Source: Betaproteobacteria bacterium (GTDB lineage Bacteria > Pseudomonadota > Gammaproteobacteria > Burkholderiales > Casimicrobiaceae). From it: 64,000 bases of DNA. The notes beneath the pieces are model-generated. The model searched no databases. It was not told the DNA's origin and saw only the letters and a list, made by a program, of their open reading frames with translations. Of the stretch, positions 6,511 to 46,600 are shown one piece after another; the first letter of the stretch is position 1, and each line of letters opens with the position of its first letter. The stretch is from positions 682,001-746,000 of the forward strand of contig BOKS01000001.1 in the NCBI GenBank assembly GCA_016861105.1, read 5' to 3'. The position numbers and the translations under genes were made by a program.

Positions 6511-7494
6511 ATGCGACCTGCATGCATGTACCTCACCGGAGCAGCCGCACCCCGGTCCGCTGCCCGGGACATCGACGCGCCCCTCGTGAACGCGCTCCAC
6601 GGCATCCAGTCGGCGCTCAATCCGCAATCGCCGCAAGCGTCCGCGATCGCCGAGCTCGCATGGCTGCTCATCGGCGGCGCGGCGGCAATTTTCGCGGTCG
6701 TCATGGTACTGGCGGCACTCGCCGTCTGGCGCCACCCACGCTGGCTCGGCAGCAGGAATGCGATCGTGATCGGGGGCATCGCCGTGCCGATGCTCGTCTT
6801 GTCGGGCCTGCTGGTCCACAGCGTCACCCGGATGGGTGGACTGACCGACCGCGGCGACGCGTCGCTGCGCGTCGAGGTCGTCGGCAAGCAATGGTGGTGG
6901 CGCGTGCGGTACCTGACGGCGTCAGGCGCGACCGACTTCGAGACCGCGAACGAGCTCCGGGTCCCGGCGGGGTCCTCCGTCGAGGTCGCGCTTGCCTCCG
7001 ACGACGTGCTCCACAGTTTCTGGGTTCCGAACCTTGCCGGCAAGCTCGACCTCGTTCCGGGTCGCGTGAACCGGCTCCGCTTCACCGCGACCAACACTGG
7101 AACCTGGCGCGGTCAGTGCGCCGAGTACTGCGGCGGCCCGCATGCACTGATGGCGTTCCACGTGATCGCGCTGCCGGTCGCCGACTTCGAGCGCTGGGCC
7201 GAAAGGCAGCGCGCGCCGGCGGCGACGCCGCCGCCGCCGGCCTTCACCGCCCACTGCGCCGTCTGCCACACGTTGCGTGGAACGCCGGCAGGCGGCGACC
7301 GCGGCCCCGATCTGACGCACGTCGGCGGGCGCATTGCGCTGGCGGCTGGCATCCTCCCGAACAACCGGCAGGCAATCGCGACGTGGATCACGTCCAGCCA
7401 GCACGTCAAGCCGGGGAACCTGATGCCTTCGTTCCGGACGCTCCCGGCGGTCGCGGTCGCCGAGCTCGCCGCCTACCTCGAAGGGTTGGAGTAG
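6511..7494 (+). CDS. ctaC: cytochrome c oxidase subunit II with C-terminal cytochrome c (caa3 type)
   Basis: A 327-residue membrane-anchored subunit that accepts electrons at CuA and passes them to subunit I. Two transmembrane helices lie at about residues 48-72 and 83-104. The CuA ligands are all present: H168 and the cluster C203, E205, C207, H211, M214 (CAEYCGGPHALM). A fused periplasmic cytochrome c domain follows, with heme motif C249-A-V-C252-H253 and axial Met about 305 (NLMPSF). This makes the enzyme caa3-like. The start is uncertain; an in-frame ATG at 6526 is also possible. It heads the oxidase cluster. Confidence 0.92.
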   Translation: MRPACMYLTGAAAPRSAARDIDAPLVNALHGIQSALNPQSPQASAIAELAWLLIGGAAAIFAVVMVLAALAVWRHPRWLGSRNAIVIGGIAVPMLVLSGLLVHSVTRMGGLTDRGDASLRVEVVGKQWWWRVRYLTASGATDFETANELRVPAGSSVEVALASDDVLHSFWVPNLAGKLDLVPGRVNRLRFTATNTGTWRGQCAEYCGGPHALMAFHVIALPVADFERWAERQRAPAATPPPPAFTAHCAVCHTLRGTPAGGDRGPDLTHVGGRIALAAGILPNNRQAIATWITSSQHVKPGNLMPSFRTLPAVAVAELAAYLEGLE

Positions 7495-7498
7495 GACG

Positions 7499-7699
7499 GT
7501 GGCCAGGCACCCGGGATGGTCCGCCGACGTGTCGATCCTCGCGGTGGCCGCGAACGCGGGTGTGGCGCGAACCGCCATCCGTGACGACCGCCCCGACCGC
7601 GGCTTCGACGAAGCGTCCGGCACTGCTTCGATCGACGCCACGGCGCTCGTGATCGTCACGGGCGCTGCCGGACCCGCCGGACACGATCGGATCCGATGA
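7499..7699 (+). CDS. possible small ORF between oxidase subunits
   Basis: A 66-residue frame starting at GTG that fills the gap between subunit II and subunit I. Its stop overlaps the subunit I start as ATGA, which would suit translational coupling. No domain, signal or membrane segment is recognised and the sequence is weakly gene-like, so it may be spacer DNA that happens to be open. Confidence 0.22.
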   Translation: MARHPGWSADVSILAVAANAGVARTAIRDDRPDRGFDEASGTASIDATALVIVTGAAGPAGHDRIR

Positions 7700-10212
7700 G
7701 CGACGAGCGCGCGCTGCCGCTGCCGAACCCCGGCCCGCGTCCCGCAGGCGAGGTGGAGGAGCTGCGTCGCATCTGGGCCGCTCCGAAGGGGCTGCGCTTC
7801 CTCACGGTCATCAACAACAACTACATCGGCGTGCTCTACGTCGGTGCCGCGTTCCTGTTCTTCGTACTCGCCGGCATCCTGGCGCTGATGATGCGCACGC
7901 AGCTCGCGGTCGCCGAGAACGACCTCGTCGGCCCCACGCTGTACAACCGGCTGTTCACGATGCACGGCACGGTGATGATGTTCCTGTTCGCCGTGCCCGT
8001 CGTCGAGGCGATGGGGGTTCTCCTTCTTCCCAACATGCTGGGGGCCCGCGACCTGCCCTTCCCGCGGCTCTCCGCGTACGCCTTCTGGGCGTACTTCATC
8101 GGGGGCACGGTGTTCTTCGCGAGCCTGTTCGTCGGCTGGGCCCCGGCCGGCGGGTGGTTCATGAATCCGCCGCTCACGACCGAGTACTTCTCGCCCGGGT
8201 TCAACGAGGACTTCTGGCTGCTCGGCATCGGGTTCATCGAGATCTCGGCGATCGCCGGCGCCATCGAGATCATCGTCGGCGTGCTTCGCACGCGCGCGCC
8301 CGGCATGACGCTGGCACGGATGCCGCTGTTCGCCTGGGCGATGCTCGTGTTCGCCGTGATGATCATCCTCGCGTTCCCGGCGGTGATCCTCGCCACTGCG
8401 CTCCTCGAGCTGGAGCGCGCGTTCCACTGGCCGTTCTTCACCGCCGAGGCCGGCGGCGATCCGCTGCTCTGGCAGCACCTGTTCTGGTTCTTCGGCCACC
8501 CGGAGGTCTACGTCATCTTCCTTCCCGCGGCGGGCATGGTCTCGATGATCGTTCCCACGATGGCCGGCCAGCCGCTCGCCGCGCAGCGCCTCGTGATCCT
8601 CGCCCTGGTGGCCACGGCGTTCCTGAGCTTCGGCCTGTGGGTGCACCACATGTTCGCCACCGGCATCCCCGGGATCTCGCTCGCCTTTTTCGAGGCGGCG
8701 AGCATGGCCGTGGCGATCCCCAGCGGAATCCAGGTGTTCGCGTGGATCGCGACGTTCGCGCGGGGTCGCGTCCGGCTGGCGGTACCGACGCTCTTCGTGC
8801 TCGGCTTCCTGTTCATCTTCGTGCTCGGCGGCCTGACCGGCGTCATGGTGGCCGCCATTCCGTTCGACTGGCAGGCGCACGACACCTACTTCGTCGTCGC
8901 GCACCTGCACTACGTGCTGATCGGCGGAATGGTGTTCCCGCTGTTCGCCGCCTTCTACTACTGGATGCCGTACACGAGCCGCTTCCCGCTCTCGGAGCGC
9001 GTCGGGCGCTGGGTCTTCGGGCTCCTGTTCGCGGGCGCCAACCTGACCTTCTTCCCGATGCACGTGCTCGGGCTCGCGGGCATGCCCCGCCGCGTCTACA
9101 CCTACCAGTCGGGCCTCGGATGGGACGCCATCAACCTCGCCTCCACCGCCGGCGCGTTCGTGATCGCAGCCGGCGTGCTGCTCTTCCTCGTCGACGTCGC
9201 CCGCAGGTTCCGCATGTCCGCGGAGGACAACGCGGGCGACGTCTGGGGTGCCGGGACCCTGGAGTGGCTGCCGGGCGGCAACTACAGCAACCGCAGCATT
9301 CCCGTCGTGACCGGCCGCTACCCGCTGTGGGAGCAGCCCGGCCTCGCGAAGGACGTCGAGGAAGGACGCTACTACCTGCCCAACGCGCCCACCGGAACCC
9401 GCGAGACGATCCTGACGAGTCCGCTCGAGGCGACGCCGCAGGTGCTGATGCGCATGCCGGTGCCGGGCTGGGCGCCCCAGGTCGCCGCCTTCTTCACCGC
9501 GGCGTTCTTCATGCTGCTCACCGTGAAGCTCGTCTGGCTCGCCGCCGCATGCGGCCTCGTCGCCGTCGGGGCGCTGCTTCACTGGGGCTGGAGCCTCGAC
9601 CCGCCGCCGCTTCCCGACGCGGTCGACATCGGAGGCGGGATCCGCCTCCCGGCCTACGCGAGTGGACCCACGTCGCAGGCATGGTGGGCGATGGCAATCC
9701 TGATGCTGACGGCCGCGTCGCTGTACGCCTGCGCGATCTTCTCGTACCTCTACCTGTGGCTGGTCGCGCCGGGCACGTGGCCGGACGCCTCGGCGCTGCC
9801 GCGGAGCAGCTATCCGGTCGTCTCCGCCGTCCTGCTCGTCGCGAGCAGCGCGGCGTTCGGCTCGGCGAACGGCAGCCTCGCCCGCGGCGCCACTCCGGCG
9901 CCGGCCATCGCCGCGGCGATCGTGCTCGCGCTGGCCGGCTTCGGTACCGAGTTCGCGTCGCACCTCGCCGTCGATCCCAGGGCCTCGGCGTACGGGGCCG
10001 TCGTCCACCTGTTCGTCCTCCTCGGCGGGTTCTTCGTCGCCGTCGCCGTCGTCCTGGCAGCCTTCGCGATGGCCCGCCGGCTCGCCGGGAAGCTCGATCG
10101 CGTCCGGCGCGTCACCTTCGACAACGCCCGCATCTTCTGGCACTACGTCGTGGCGCAGAGCCTCGTCGGGCTACTGCTGCTGCACGGCTTTCCACGTCTC
10201 GCCGCGCCCTAG
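7696..10212 (+). CDS. ctaD: cytochrome c oxidase, fused subunits I and III
   Basis: An 838-residue integral membrane protein joining the catalytic subunit I (about residues 1-560) to a subunit III domain (about 590-838). Low-spin heme ligand: NRLFTMHGTVMMF. CuB and cross-link motif: FFGHPEVYVIFLPAAG, which also carries the proton-channel Glu, so this is an A-type heme-copper oxidase. CuB histidines: WVHHMFATG. Heme a3/a histidines: HDTYFVVAHLHYV. Fusions of I and III are known among caa3-type oxidases. The TAG stop (10210-10212) is part of a CTAG that borders the downstream MITE-like element. Confidence 0.95.
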   Translation: MSDERALPLPNPGPRPAGEVEELRRIWAAPKGLRFLTVINNNYIGVLYVGAAFLFFVLAGILALMMRTQLAVAENDLVGPTLYNRLFTMHGTVMMFLFAVPVVEAMGVLLLPNMLGARDLPFPRLSAYAFWAYFIGGTVFFASLFVGWAPAGGWFMNPPLTTEYFSPGFNEDFWLLGIGFIEISAIAGAIEIIVGVLRTRAPGMTLARMPLFAWAMLVFAVMIILAFPAVILATALLELERAFHWPFFTAEAGGDPLLWQHLFWFFGHPEVYVIFLPAAGMVSMIVPTMAGQPLAAQRLVILALVATAFLSFGLWVHHMFATGIPGISLAFFEAASMAVAIPSGIQVFAWIATFARGRVRLAVPTLFVLGFLFIFVLGGLTGVMVAAIPFDWQAHDTYFVVAHLHYVLIGGMVFPLFAAFYYWMPYTSRFPLSERVGRWVFGLLFAGANLTFFPMHVLGLAGMPRRVYTYQSGLGWDAINLASTAGAFVIAAGVLLFLVDVARRFRMSAEDNAGDVWGAGTLEWLPGGNYSNRSIPVVTGRYPLWEQPGLAKDVEEGRYYLPNAPTGTRETILTSPLEATPQVLMRMPVPGWAPQVAAFFTAAFFMLLTVKLVWLAAACGLVAVGALLHWGWSLDPPPLPDAVDIGGGIRLPAYASGPTSQAWWAMAILMLTAASLYACAIFSYLYLWLVAPGTWPDASALPRSSYPVVSAVLLVASSAAFGSANGSLARGATPAPAIAAAIVLALAGFGTEFASHLAVDPRASAYGAVVHLFVLLGGFFVAVAVVLAAFAMARRLAGKLDRVRRVTFDNARIFWHYVVAQSLVGLLLLHGFPRLAAP

Positions 10213-10403
10213 TGCCCCGAGTCGGAGGTTCGTTGAAGAATGGATCGATCGTGAACGAGCCGGCGGCGCAAAGGCGACGAAAACGGATGCGCTGCGCGAA
10301 GCGGCCCGAAGCGGATATCGCGAATATCGGCGAGGGCCGCGACACTGCAGCGCGCCGTTCTTCGCTCGCCTTTGTGCAACGAACTTCCGACTCGGGGCAC
10401 TAG
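10209..10403. mobile_element. MITE-like element with 27-bp terminal inverted repeats
   Basis: Ends at 10209-10235 and 10377-10403 are inverted copies matching at 26 of 27 positions (CTAGTGCCCCGAGTCGGA at the outer edge). Each begins with CTAG, which can be read as a 4-bp target duplication, giving an element of about 191 bp. The interior has no transposase; short frames through it are not gene-like. Inside, GATAT and ATATC form a small palindrome. The CTAG target and size fit a non-autonomous derivative of an IS5-type transposon (YTAR-like target), which is inference. It lies exactly between the stop of the oxidase fusion and the next ATG at 10405. Confidence 0.75.
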
Positions 10404-10404
10404 C

Positions 10405-10704
10405 ATGGGATCCGGGCTCCACGCACTGCGCATCGCCGCGGGCATCGTCCTGTGGGCCGTGCACTTCGCCCTGGTCTACGGATCGACGGCGTTCGCATGC
10501 GCACGTGGCGCCGCGGCTGCCGTTCCGTGGATCATCGGCAGTGCAACCGTCGTGGCGGCGTTGCTGGCGGCCGCGATCGCCGCCGTCGAGTGGCGCCGCC
10601 GGGAAGCGTTCGAGTCCTGGCTCGCGTCGGGGCTCGCCGCCGTGGCGTTCTTCGCCATCGTGTTCGAGGGCGTCCCCGTGCTCTTCCTCGCGCCATGCGC
10701 CTGA
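10405..10704 (+). CDS. small three-helix membrane protein of the oxidase cluster
   Basis: A 99-residue hydrophobic protein with three predicted helices at roughly residues 8-28, 38-60 and 72-95. A motif like VHFALVYGSTAFACARG is seen in unnamed small proteins encoded beside ctaG in other caa3 clusters. The ATG is only one base from the right end of the MITE-like element, so its original ribosome-binding region was displaced, and translation may now depend on sequence in the element or on an internal start. It overlaps ctaG by 10 bp. Role probably oxidase assembly or stability; not demonstrated. Confidence 0.7.
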   Translation: MGSGLHALRIAAGIVLWAVHFALVYGSTAFACARGAAAAVPWIIGSATVVAALLAAAIAAVEWRRREAFESWLASGLAAVAFFAIVFEGVPVLFLAPCA

Positions 10705-11447
10705 TCGTGCTCGCCGCCGCCCTGTCGTCCGGTCTTGCCCACGCGCATGCGGTCGACGCTCGTCCCGACGCCTACGCCGTCGCCGCGTGGGCGGTGCTGG
10801 CGGCGGCCGCTCTGGGCTACGGCGCGGCATGGCGGCGCGGCGCCGCGTTGCGTGCGCGGAACGCGGCGGCGTTCGGGGGAGGCTGGACGGCGCTGGCGCT
10901 CGCGCTGCTCGTCACGCCCGATGCGCCGGCGCCGTTCGCGCTGCACATGGTGCAGCACGAGCTGATGATGCTCGCCGCACCGCCGTTGCTGATCCTCGGG
11001 CGCCCGTTCACCGCGCTGGCCTCCCTCGCGCCGCGGCCGCTCGTCCGGGGAGCGGCCATCCCGCTGCGCGTGCCGCCGCTCGCCGCCTGGGGATGCCATG
11101 CAGCGGCGTTGTGGGTCTGGCACGTTCCCAGGCTCTTCGACGCCGCCGCGGCGTCGCCCCACCTCCACGCGCTCCAGCACGCCACGTTCTTCGCAAGCGC
11201 CCTGCTGTTCTGGTGGACGGTGTTCCGCCGCCTGCGACGCGGGACCGCCGTGTTCTACATCCTCACGACGTTCATGCACACGGGCGCGCTGGCGGCGCTG
11301 CTCACGTTCGCACCCGCCGCCCTGTATGCCGACACGCCGCTCGCCGAACAGCAGCTCGGCGGCCTGATCATGTGGGTGCCCGCCGGATTCGTCATGCTCG
11401 TCGCGGGACTCGTCGCGTTCGACCGCCTGCTGGTGGAAAGGCCGTGA
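10695..11447 (+). CDS. ctaG: CtaG-like cytochrome c oxidase assembly protein (Caa3_CtaG family)
   Basis: A 250-residue polytopic membrane protein starting with a cleavable or first-helix segment (MRLIVLAAALSSGLAHAHA). Family histidines that may carry copper are present in LHMVQHELMMLAAPP, VWHVPRLF and LHALQHATFF. The C-terminal half has the TTFMHTGALAALLTFAP and GLIMWVPAGFVML segments typical of the Caa3_CtaG family, distinct from Cox11. It is translationally overlapped with the genes before and after it, consistent with a dedicated assembly role for this oxidase, probably CuB insertion. Confidence 0.88.
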   Translation: MRLIVLAAALSSGLAHAHAVDARPDAYAVAAWAVLAAAALGYGAAWRRGAALRARNAAAFGGGWTALALALLVTPDAPAPFALHMVQHELMMLAAPPLLILGRPFTALASLAPRPLVRGAAIPLRVPPLAAWGCHAAALWVWHVPRLFDAAAASPHLHALQHATFFASALLFWWTVFRRLRRGTAVFYILTTFMHTGALAALLTFAPAALYADTPLAEQQLGGLIMWVPAGFVMLVAGLVAFDRLLVERP

Positions 11448-11893
11448 GGGCTGCCCCGGCACCGCCGGCGCCGACGCTCGGGGCGCACGCGACGCGGGAC
11501 AGCGTTGCGAGCCGCGCGGGCGCGCACGCGCGGCGTGCCGCCCTCGCGGCCATGCTGGCAGGCGCCGCGTGCGCGGTCGCCGGCTGCAGTGGGGGAAGTG
11601 CGGCGGATGCGCCGGGGGATGTCGAGAACGGGCGCCTGCTGCTGCGCCAGTTCGGCTGCGGCTCGTGCCATGCCATCCCGGGCGTCGCCACCGCGCGCGG
11701 CCGGGTCGGTCCTCCGCTGGACGCCATTGCGCGCCGGGTCTACCTCGCCGGCGTCATCCCCAACACGCCGGACAACATGGTGCGGTGGATCCGCGACCCG
11801 CAGGCGCTCGTGCCCCGGACCCTCATGCCGGATCTGGACGTGAGCGAGCCGCATGCCCGCGACATGACGGCCTACCTGTACACCCTGCGATGA
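11444..11893 (+). CDS. monoheme cytochrome c, probable lipoprotein
   Basis: A 149-residue protein from a GTG that overlaps the ctaG stop as GTGA; an internal ATG at 11552 is an alternative start. A lipobox follows a hydrophobic stretch (LAGAACAVAGC), so it is probably anchored at the periplasmic face. The heme motif is CGSCH with a likely axial Met in TLMPDLDVS. The mature domain is clearly a paralogue of the second domain of the next gene, sharing VGPPL, LAGVIPNT/LAGVLPNT and MPDL blocks. Likely electron carrier to the oxidase. Confidence 0.85.
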   Translation: MRAAPAPPAPTLGAHATRDSVASRAGAHARRAALAAMLAGAACAVAGCSGGSAADAPGDVENGRLLLRQFGCGSCHAIPGVATARGRVGPPLDAIARRVYLAGVIPNTPDNMVRWIRDPQALVPRTLMPDLDVSEPHARDMTAYLYTLR

Positions 11894-12486
11894 AACCTGT
11901 CTTCGCCACGCTCGCCGGGCTCATGATCGCGGGGGCACTCGCGGCCGCTGCCGTGGTCGGCCTGGGGCTCTACGACATCTCGGCCACCGACCAGCACCTG
12001 CAGCCGACCTACCGCCTGCTCGACGCGTCGATGCGCAGCTCCGTCGCACGCCGGGCCCGTAGCATCGTCGTGCCCGGGCTCGAGGACGCGGCGCAGCGTG
12101 ACCACGGGATGGCGCTGTACGACGCGAATTGCGTTCCCTGCCACGGTGCGCCGGGCGTGGCGCCCGAGCCGTTCGCGCTGGGGCTCACGCCCGCTCCGGC
12201 GAATCTCGCCCACACGGCGCGGGAATGGTCGGCGGCGGAGCTCTACTGGGTGGTGCGGCACGGCATCAAGATGACCGGCATGCCGGCGTGGGCGTATCGG
12301 CTGCCCGACGACGATCTGTGGGCCATCGTCGCGTTCCTGCAGGTCCTGCCGTCGATGCGTCCGCAGGACTACCGGGCGCGAACGGGCCGCACCGACCCGC
12401 CTCGTGCGCGCGAGGCCGCGGAGGGCAAGGCGCGACTGCCCGGCGATGTCGCCCGCGGCAAACGCGCGATCCAGCAGTACGCGTGA
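11890..12486 (+). CDS. membrane-anchored cytochrome c, first domain; frame interrupted by TGA
   Basis: A 198-residue product starting ATGA-coupled to the previous gene. One N-terminal helix (about residues 8-30) anchors a periplasmic cytochrome domain with heme motif CVPCH and axial Met in KMTGMPAWAY. The frame stops at TGA 12484-12486, right after KRAIQQYA. The same frame continues for 78 codons into a second cytochrome domain whose heme motif would start at that TGA. The normal product was therefore probably a diheme cytochrome of about 276 residues. As written, only the first heme domain is made unless the TGA is read through or is a sequencing error. Confidence 0.82.
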   Translation: MKPVFATLAGLMIAGALAAAAVVGLGLYDISATDQHLQPTYRLLDASMRSSVARRARSIVVPGLEDAAQRDHGMALYDANCVPCHGAPGVAPEPFALGLTPAPANLAHTAREWSAAELYWVVRHGIKMTGMPAWAYRLPDDDLWAIVAFLQVLPSMRPQDYRARTGRTDPPRAREAAEGKARLPGDVARGKRAIQQYA

Positions 12487-12720
12487 GTGACTTGCCACCA
12501 GATCCCGGGCATCGTCGGCGCGAACGCCCCGGTGGGACCGCCGCTTCGCGGCGTCGCGCAGCGGAAGATCCTGGCCGGCGTGCTCCCCAACACGTCCGCG
12601 AACCTGGTGCGCTGGCTGCGCGCGCCGCACGGCGTCAGTCCCGCAACCGCCATGCCGGACCTCGGCCTCACGCCGCAGCATGCGGCCGACATCGCAGCCT
12701 ATCTCTCCACGCTCGACTGA
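12487..12720 (+). pseudogene. second cytochrome c domain, cut off by TGA in its CxxCH motif
   Basis: In frame with the upstream cytochrome and intact to a TGA at 12718-12720. It reads VTCHQIPGIVGANAPVGPPL, with LAGVLPNT and axial-Met block MPDLGLTP. Alignment with the neighbour cytochrome (QFGCGSCHAIPG against QYA-stop-VTCHQIPG) puts the TGA exactly at the first heme cysteine. GTG 12487 could be called a start, but a product from it would lack both a signal peptide and the first heme cysteine, so an independent gene is unlikely. Options are a one-base nonsense change from TGC or TGT, a sequencing error, or recoding. Confidence 0.75.
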
Positions 12721-12843
12721 CCGGCGCGGCCGGCGGCATCGATCGTCGACGCACACGACGGCGCGCGCGACCGGGCGTCATCGCTGCGGCGCAGCGTCGC
12801 GACGACAGAACGCGTAGCGCCCCCAACGCGAATGTCCGCAGAG

Positions 12844-14052
<1,209 letters not shown>

Positions 14053-43626: not shown

Positions 43627-46600
43627 GTGAACGCGGAGCGCCAGGGCCCGGCACGACCTCCCGTGGCCGCCCGCGTCCCCGTTCTCGCGAAGCTCTCGCG
43701 CCCGAAGCACTTCGACGCGCTGGCGCGGCCGCGGCTGTTCGAGCGACTCGACGAGGCGCGCGCGCGGCCCGTCATCTGGCTGTGCGCGCCGCCGGGCTCC
43801 GGCAAGTCGACGCTGGCGGCGACGTGGATCGAGGCACGGCGCGTCCCGCACCTGTGGTACCAGGTCGACGCCGCCGACAGCGACCCGGCGACGTTCATGC
43901 ACTACATGCGCATGGCCGCGCAGGTGCTGGTCGGCAAGCGTGCGGCCGCGCTCCCGCCGTACGCGTCCGAGCCGCAGCAGGACCTCGCGCGCTTCGCGCG
44001 GAGCTTCTGCCGCGAGCTCTTCGCGCTGCTGCCGCGGCACACGGTGATCGTCCTCGACAACTTCCACGAGGCGCGCTCGTCGCCGGAGCAGCGGGCGGCC
44101 TTCGCGCAGGGGCTGGAGGAACTCCCCGAAGGGGTCAACATCCTCGTGCTCTCGCGCGGCGACCCGCCGCCCGAGTTCTCGCGCCTGATGGCCGGCCGGC
44201 GCATCGCGCGCATCGACGCCGCGGAGCTCCGCTGCACCGACGACGAGGCGGACCGGCTGCTCGGCAGCGTCGGGCTGCCGCGCGACGACGTGCAGCGCAT
44301 CGTCCGCCAGAGCGACGGCTGGGCGGCCGCGCTGGTCCTGCTGCGCGAGCACCTGTCGCGGCCCAGTGCGACGCTCGAGGAGTCGCTCGGCGAGGGCAAG
44401 GACGCGATCTTCCGCTACTTCGCCGGCGAGATCTTCGGCCGCGCACGGCCCGAGAACCGGCACGCGCTGATGGTCACGGCGATCCTCCCGTCGATCACCG
44501 AGGGCGAGGCGCGCGAGCTGACCGGCAGCGACGACGCCGGGCGCCTGCTCGACTACCTGTACCGGCGGCGGCTGTTCGTCGACCGCCGCCGCGGCGCCGC
44601 CGTCACCTACCAGTACCACGCGCTGTTCCGCGAGTTCCTCGTCGAGGAGGGCCGGCGGCGGCTGCCCGCCGCGCGTCGGTGCGAGCTCACCGCGCACGCC
44701 GCGCGCCTGGTCGAGCAGCGCGGCGAGCCCGAGTCGGCGCTCGCGCTCTATCGCGACGCCGGTGACTTCGCGGCGATGCACCGGCTGATCGTGGCGAACG
44801 CGCTCGACTGGGCACGCCACGGCCGCTCGCAGGCCCTGTCGGACTGGATCGAGGCGCTGCCCCCGTCGGTGCGCGAGGCCGATCCGTGGCTCGCGTACTG
44901 GCTCGGCCGGGCGTGGGTGTTCGTGCAGCCGGCGCGCGGACAGGCCGCGCTGGAGCGCGCGTTCGAATCGTTCCGCGCGGCGGGGGACCTGCGCGGCCAG
45001 GCGCTCGCGCTCAACACGATCGTGACGGGCTATTACTACGAGTGGGCGAACTTCGCGCCCATCGACCGCTGGCTGCCGGAGTTCAGCAGGCTGCTCGGCG
45101 GCGACGGGGACGTGCCGCTCGACCGCGAGAGCGAGCTGCGCGCGCGCTCCGCCTGGCTCATCGCGATGCTGTTCCGCACGCCCGACGACGGGGCGCTCGC
45201 CGCGTGCGCGCAGCGGCTCGACGCGCTGCTCGACGGCGAACCCGACGTCAACGCGCGGATGATGGCCGCGTCCACGCTGTTCAACTACCTCAACTGGCAC
45301 ACGAAGGGCGACTCGGCGGACGCGCTGGTCGCCCGCGTCGAGCCGCTGCTCGCGCGGCCGGACGTGACGCCGATGATGCAGCTGTGGTGGCGCACGCACC
45401 TCGCCTTCTGGCACTTCATCAACGGGCGCTACGACCGCTCCGCGGCGGTCACCGCCGAGGCGCGCGACATCGCCGAGCGCTACGGGCTCGCGGCCTACCT
45501 GTTCGAGATCGACCACGCGGAGGCGTCGGCGCTGGTGAGCAAGGGCGCGCTGGCCGAGGCGAAGGCGCGGCTGGACGCGATCGAGCGCCGCCTGTCGCCG
45601 TCGCGGCGCATGGACTGGGCCTACTTCCACCACCTCAAGGCGACGCTGGAGCAGCGGATGGGGTTGCCGGCGGCGGCGGTGAAGTCCGCCGAGCGCGCCG
45701 TCGCGCTCGCCCGCGAGACCGGCCTGCCGACGCTGCAGCTGCCGCATTTCATCGCGCGCCTCGGGCACGCGCGCGCGGGAGCGGGCGACCGCGCCGGCGG
45801 CCTCGCCGCGCTCGACGAGGCCCTGCGGCTCGCCGCGGGCGCGGACCGCTGGGCGCTCGAGCAGCAGCGGCTCGCCGTGGAGATCGGCTTCGACCTCGAG
45901 GCGGCCGACGACGACGCGGCCCGGGGGAAGATCGCCCGCCTCGTCGACGCCTACAAGTCGCGCGGCTACGTCGTCTTCCTGCGCAACCGCCCCGACCTCG
46001 CGGCACGCATCGCCGCGTTCGCACTGCGCGAGGGCATCGAGCCCGACTACGTGCGCCTGCTGATCGCGCGCAACGCGCTGGTCGCCCCGGCGGGTGCCGG
46101 CGAAGCGTGGCCTTTCCGCCTGCGGGTGCACGCGCTCGGCGGCTTCGAGCTGGTGCGCGACGGGCAGCCGATGCGCTTCGCGGGCAAGGCGCAGCAGCGA
46201 CCGCTCGACCTGCTGAAGCTCGTCGTCGCGCTGGGCGGCGAGGACGTCGAGAGCGCCGCCGTCACGGCGGCGCTGTGGCCGGATGCCGACGGCGCCGCGG
46301 CCAAGACGTCGTTCGACACCGCGCTCTTCCGCCTGCGCAAGCTGCTGGACGTCGACGGCGCGCTGCGGCTCGCCGGCGGCAAGCTCTCGCTCGCCCCGGA
46401 GCTCGTGTGGACCGACGTCGCCGCGCTGCAGGACACGCTCGACGCGGCGCAGCGCGACTACGAGGCGAAGGCCGGGGCGGCGACGCTCGCGCAGGCCGCG
46501 CGCGCGGTGCTGGCCGCCTGCCCGGGCCCGCTGCTCGGCGCCGAGGAGGCGCCGTGGATCGCGCAGCCCCGCGACGCGCTGCGCGCGCGCATGCTGCGGA

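Follow-up and report, generated by a model that had tools for sequence, protein, structure and literature searches.

An in-frame TGA at a heme-binding cysteine codon in the last cytochrome c gene of a caa3-type oxidase cluster

Results

In a draft betaproteobacterial genome (Casimicrobiaceae, GCA_016861105.1), an in-frame TGA interrupts the gene at the end of a caa3-type oxidase cluster, exactly where two-domain orthologues encode the first cysteine of their second CxxCH heme motif. The gene lies in the window, the whole stretch of 64,000 nucleotides analysed here. The TGA is almost certainly a nonsense change confined to one codon, from Cys to TGA, or a consensus error that mimics one; within this reading we lean towards a real and recent mutation. 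The most likely outcome is a nonsense allele that leaves a monoheme cytochrome, and recoding of the codon is very unlikely. As found, the locus is nothing out of the ordinary: a nonsense allele, or an error of assembly, in a single accessory cytochrome of an oxidase.

Organization of the oxidase cluster and of the interrupted gene

The neighbours expected for a two-domain cytochrome of this kind, coxB, coxA and ctaG, were all three found in the window by Pfam. A coxB-like gene for subunit II with a C-terminal cytochrome c domain (6511-7494, forward strand) matched COX2 with 70.7 bits and Cytochrom_C with 31.1 bits, both above the cut-off. The subunit I gene (7696-10212, forward strand) is open throughout and codes for 838 amino acids, of which residues 44-489 matched COX1 (467.1 bits); the part beyond these residues gave no Pfam match and, from its length, may be a fused subunit III-like tail. 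The subunit I gene is followed by a short frame (10372-10704) that matched no Pfam family, and then by the gene for the caa3 assembly factor CtaG (10686-11447, forward strand; Caa3_CtaG, 128.6 bits). A lipoprotein-like monoheme cytochrome c with an intact CGSCH motif is encoded at 11444-11893 on the forward strand. Its sequence AVAGC is what we take to be a lipobox-like motif, and no Pfam family matched the protein at E up to 0.01. This cytochrome is a paralogue of the interrupted domain, with 51% identity over query residues 183-274. The start codons of ctaG, of the monoheme gene and of the interrupted gene (ATG 11890) were chosen by us.

As now read, the interrupted gene (11890-12486, forward strand) codes for a cytochrome c of 198 amino acids with a CVPCH motif and GMPAW (Pfam Cytochrome_CBB3, 63.9 bits), and its hydrophobic N-terminus suggests a membrane anchor. 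Codons 12472-12504 read CAG CAG TAC GCG TGA GTG ACT TGC CAC CAG ATC, which places the TGA (12484-12486, forward strand) at the first Cys position of the second CxxCH. Behind it, a second cytochrome c domain, presumed to be untranslated, occupies 12487-12720 on the forward strand (77 codons and a final TGA at 12718-12720; Pfam Cytochrom_C, 27.5 bits against a cut-off of 21.3). Read through, the full frame 11890-12720 would give 276 residues. In two-domain proteins of this kind, a single open frame codes for both cytochrome c domains, each of which has a CxxCH and an axial Met; here the first domain is complete and the second stands behind the TGA.

The open frame that follows the TGA is in itself weak evidence for a domain, since the G+C content is 73% (over the 264 kb examined) and, at such base composition, an open run of 77 codons or longer comes after 380 of the window's 1273 stops. 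It is homology that identifies the second domain as real: the Pfam Cytochrom_C match, and the orthologues that align through the TGA and carry Cys there.

Codons of the orthologues at the position of the TGA

A search of genome contigs with the read-through protein gave 186 relatives, of which the best 80 were used. Among the alignments that start before query residue 100, 49 extend over the TGA codon, and their codons there were TGC (42), TGT (4), TGA (2) and GGC (1). Both TGA rows (L001 and L030) were the window itself, fetched twice, and the GGC row is a locus of the same genus (L003, described below). Two others were left out: L022 (TGC), with 32% identity over query residues 93-205 only and an internal stop, and L025 (TGT), with 24% identity. 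The remaining 44 two-domain orthologues have no stop inside the alignment and align across the TGA codon at up to 61% identity. All of them encode Cys at this codon, by TGC in 41 and by TGT in 3, and none has TGA. Thus, of the heme-binding Cys residues of domain 2, it is the first that the TGA has replaced.

In the tree, the window cytochrome grouped with that of an Azoarcus sp. metagenome-assembled genome (L031, support 0.70) and then with that of Aromatoleum buckelii (L032, support 0.89). These two-domain cytochromes of caa3 clusters, from Burkholderiales and relatives, have the same domains, the same sequence blocks and the same oxidase neighbours as the window gene, at 59-61% identity, but differ from it in the Cys codon found in 44 of 44 where the window has TGA. 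At the 45 two-domain loci (the 44 orthologues and L003), a coxAC match was found within the stretch examined in 35, a coxB match in 38, some of these hitting the cytochrome domain of coxB alone, and a ctaG match in 6.

Conservation of the domain behind the stop

The window protein was aligned with the 45 two-domain relatives. In domain 2, 25 columns were at least 90% conserved; the TGA codon had been entered as Cys in the query by construction and its column was not counted, and the other 24 of 24 were all kept in the window protein. In domain 1, 29 of 29 conserved positions were kept. The ratio of mean identity to the 44 orthologues in domain 2 over that in domain 1 was 1.058 for the window protein, rank 12 of 46, within the range of the orthologues themselves (0.975 to 1.187); L003 had 1.393. 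Codon-position G+C was nearly equal before and after the TGA.

The absence of decay behind the stop means that the change is recent, that it is an error, or that the stop is read through. A single stop, a frame that is otherwise conserved and the absence of this stop from relatives are what is expected of a gene truncated by a nonsense mutation, and a consensus error would look identical. With all other conserved positions kept and normal identity to the orthologues, a recent change or an assembly error is indicated; as a counterpoint, functional read-through would likewise leave an undecayed domain. The observation of the original prediction is confirmed, both for the place of the TGA, at the codon of the first Cys in the second heme motif, and for the MPDLGLTP, VGPPL and LAGVLPNT blocks, which are present. 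The comparison of orthologue codons for which it had called supports its default, a recent nonsense mutation or read error.

An error of the consensus or of sequencing at the TGA, with an undamaged diheme cytochrome in the organism itself, is a serious possibility, short of likely; it is a sub-case of our preferred explanation with a different biology. The TGA is the sole lesion found in the gene, the domain is otherwise conserved, and the genome is a draft assembly in 28 contigs, 85% complete. Against an error, the site lies within a contig of 795 kb, and a codon-usage scan of 264 kb of this contig, to which frameshifts are invisible, met by our reading no second comparable interruption, so that stop-producing errors are at least not frequent.

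If the nonsense mutation is real, a Cys codon in the last gene of the caa3 cluster would have mutated to TGA, with UGA assumed to terminate in the ordinary way. The product would be an N-terminally anchored monoheme cytochrome of 198 residues, the first heme of which could still pass electrons, and the second cytochrome domain would be lost. We propose that this loss may be tolerated because similar domains are present in the neighbouring monoheme cytochrome and in CoxB, and because four other genes of the COX1 family are present in the genome. Five such genes scored above the cut-off, including the one of this cluster; some of the other four may be nitric-oxide reductases, and the weakest (202.8 bits) could be one.

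Selenocysteine machinery and folding of the RNA

A TGA at a heme Cys followed by an intact downstream domain mimics the signature of a selenoprotein and calls for caution; orthologue codons together with a search for the Sec genes settle most of such cases. A genuine UxxCH would mean that heme is attached by a novel chemistry. The original prediction had raised Cys to selenocysteine recoding as an alternative that would look the same, and the exact position of the TGA and the conservation of the domain behind it do fit insertion of selenocysteine into a UxxCH heme-binding motif. The pairing with Cys in homologues (Cys in 44/44, TGA in 0/44) suits selenocysteine and nonsense mutation equally, and the lack of TGA in all 44 orthologues counts against selenocysteine.

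No match to selA was found in the source assembly (85% complete). The best match to the selB model in this assembly reached 190.6 bits against a cut-off of 242.25 and covered model positions 1-338 only; it is probably EF-Tu. For tRNA-Sec, 150 of 582 candidates were scored and gave 9 matches, the best with 38 bits where 47 are required; eight of the nine were examined and were ordinary tRNAs (Leu, Leu, Cys, Gly, Tyr, Ser, His and Gly). Fourteen control genomes were searched as well: selB was over the cut-off in 2 and tRNA-Sec in 5, and all the others gave matches below it. Since sub-cut-off matches also appear in control genomes, only the cut-offs count for these two models. Given the completeness of 85%, the absence of the Sec machinery is strong but not final evidence against selenocysteine. 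In favour of it, selA was found in 2 of the 22 genus genomes and in 19 of 64 of the family. One of the two genus genomes with selA (G017) is the source of the decayed copy L003, which has GGC at the codon and not TGA.

A SECIS element was assessed by general folding and by Rfam, and the outcome speaks rather against one. Three stretches, two starting at the TGA and one spanning it, folded no better than shuffled sequences (z of -0.06, 0.93 and 0.50), and Rfam gave no match over 11900-13000 at E up to 1. The hairpin drawn in the original prediction (CCACC at 12495-12499 with GGTGG at 12531-12535) has both its arms in the sequence, but it was absent from the minimum-energy folds of the two stretches that hold both arms.

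Cytochromes have been named among selenoproteins. In the passages available from the review PMC13188914, selenoproteins of the multiheme cytochrome type are listed, among them the ExtKL family and an octaheme cytochrome, and these passages give no Sec motif for them. PMC1914089 describes, as a selenoprotein candidate, a c-type cytochrome (GSU2937 + GSU2936) of two Geobacter species with an in-frame TGA, and homologues in four other deltaproteobacteria. The in-frame TGA within the gene of a c-type cytochrome is what this candidate shares with the window gene. It differs in that its TGA belongs to a cluster from two Geobacter species, whereas the TGA of the window is found in one genome, at a CxxCH Cys and with no Sec machinery above the cut-offs; moreover, the Geobacter candidate has five CXXCH motifs N-terminally and a C-terminal part without known similarity. 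The term UXXCH was absent, and a UxxCH heme motif was not found, in the one limited literature collection searched, as far as its texts were available in part.

Taken with the orthologue codons, these results leave selenocysteine at this TGA barely credible. The wider proposal, that the lineage decodes the TGA as Sec (or Cys), with a selenoether or mixed heme linkage in UxxCH and with the Sec genes in the unassembled part of the genome, is hardly more so.

Stop codons elsewhere in the genome

UGA is generally the leakiest of the stop codons. Together with the undecayed domain, this would suit read-through of the UGA by tRNA-Trp or tRNA-Cys, weak or programmed, with some two-domain product. There is no sign of general recoding: the stops of 150 training genes were TGA in 104, TAG in 43 and TAA in 3. 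No suppressor tRNA was seen among 8 genome loci and the window. We consider such read-through very improbable.

A codon-usage scan of 264 kb, which is blind to frameshifts, covered 1129 stops with open flanks of 50 codons. At 19 of them the flanks look coding on both sides in one shared frame; 12 of these stops are TGA and 7 are TAG, and the TGA at 12484-12486, which is among them, ranked eighth by score. By our reading, no second gene runs through a stop in these 264 kb. Of the other 18 sites, the four with the strongest coding signal just behind the stop were read at length, and by our reading their flanking proteins look like unrelated neighbouring genes; the remaining 14 of the 18 were judged on a short stretch alone. 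With TGA terminating 104 of the 150 training genes, and with only 19 such sites among the 1129 stops scanned, genome-wide recoding of TGA was rejected.

ARAGORN reported in the window a tRNA-like match of unknown type with a two-base anticodon (44891-44981). It lies inside a frame of 1087 codons, and Rfam gave no tRNA there at E up to 10; it was rejected as an odd tRNA and is most likely a false positive.

Single-domain homologues and copies in the genus

Among the loci retrieved, homologues with domain 1 only are frequent. At 37 loci the match ended before residue 215, and in 36 of them, a count that includes one frame break (L072), no CxxCH was found in the rest of the frame; at the remaining locus (L079) a second domain is present after a longer linker. 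In Methylotetracoccus oryzae, an isolate and named strain, a single-domain homologue (L073) adjoins coxB and coxAC homologues. Such proteins resemble the window product in that the first heme domain is followed by a stop, and differ from it in that no second domain continues in that frame. Since single-domain homologues occur naturally, the truncated cytochrome with its one heme may plausibly function.

In L073 (3001-4100) and L081 (3001-3776), behind the domain-1-only cytochrome lies a second, monoheme gene that has its own signal-like start. Orthologues whose second domain is a separate gene with its own signal peptide had been named in the original prediction as evidence against an interrupted two-domain gene. 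Genes of this form do exist at these two loci; they may instead correspond to the gene at 11444-11893 of the window. The same loci bear on the idea that two functional genes have arisen from one at the stop, with the GTG at 12487, directly after the TGA, as the start codon of the second. The product of this second gene would have neither a signal peptide nor the first heme Cys and would presumably be neither exported nor matured as a normal c-type cytochrome, and the natural split forms have a signal-like start of their own. The probability of a working split is negligible.

In the complete chromosome record of Diaphorobacter aerolatus (L072, 3001-3755), the two parts of the homologue lie in different frames, with the break within the first domain.

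Among 22 genomes of the genus (66-99% complete), near-full-length matches were found in the source genome, G021 and G017 only. The copy of G021 has an open frame with TGC at the codon, and in G014 a fragment at a contig end begins after the motif. With near-full matches in few of the genomes and a degraded copy in G017, the gene seems to be dispensable in the genus.

The G017 copy (L003, 1501-2320, reverse strand) is decayed and lies beside a tRNA-Arg gene, which is just upstream. Besides GGC at the Cys codon, it has VPNLG in place of MPDLG in the axial-Met block, the first heme motif in another frame and no visible signal-like start. Since this copy is otherwise broken, it is uninformative on whether a motif without this Cys can work. 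A loss of the Cys shared across the genus was considered on account of the GGC and rejected: L003 is broken in other ways and is a decayed remnant.
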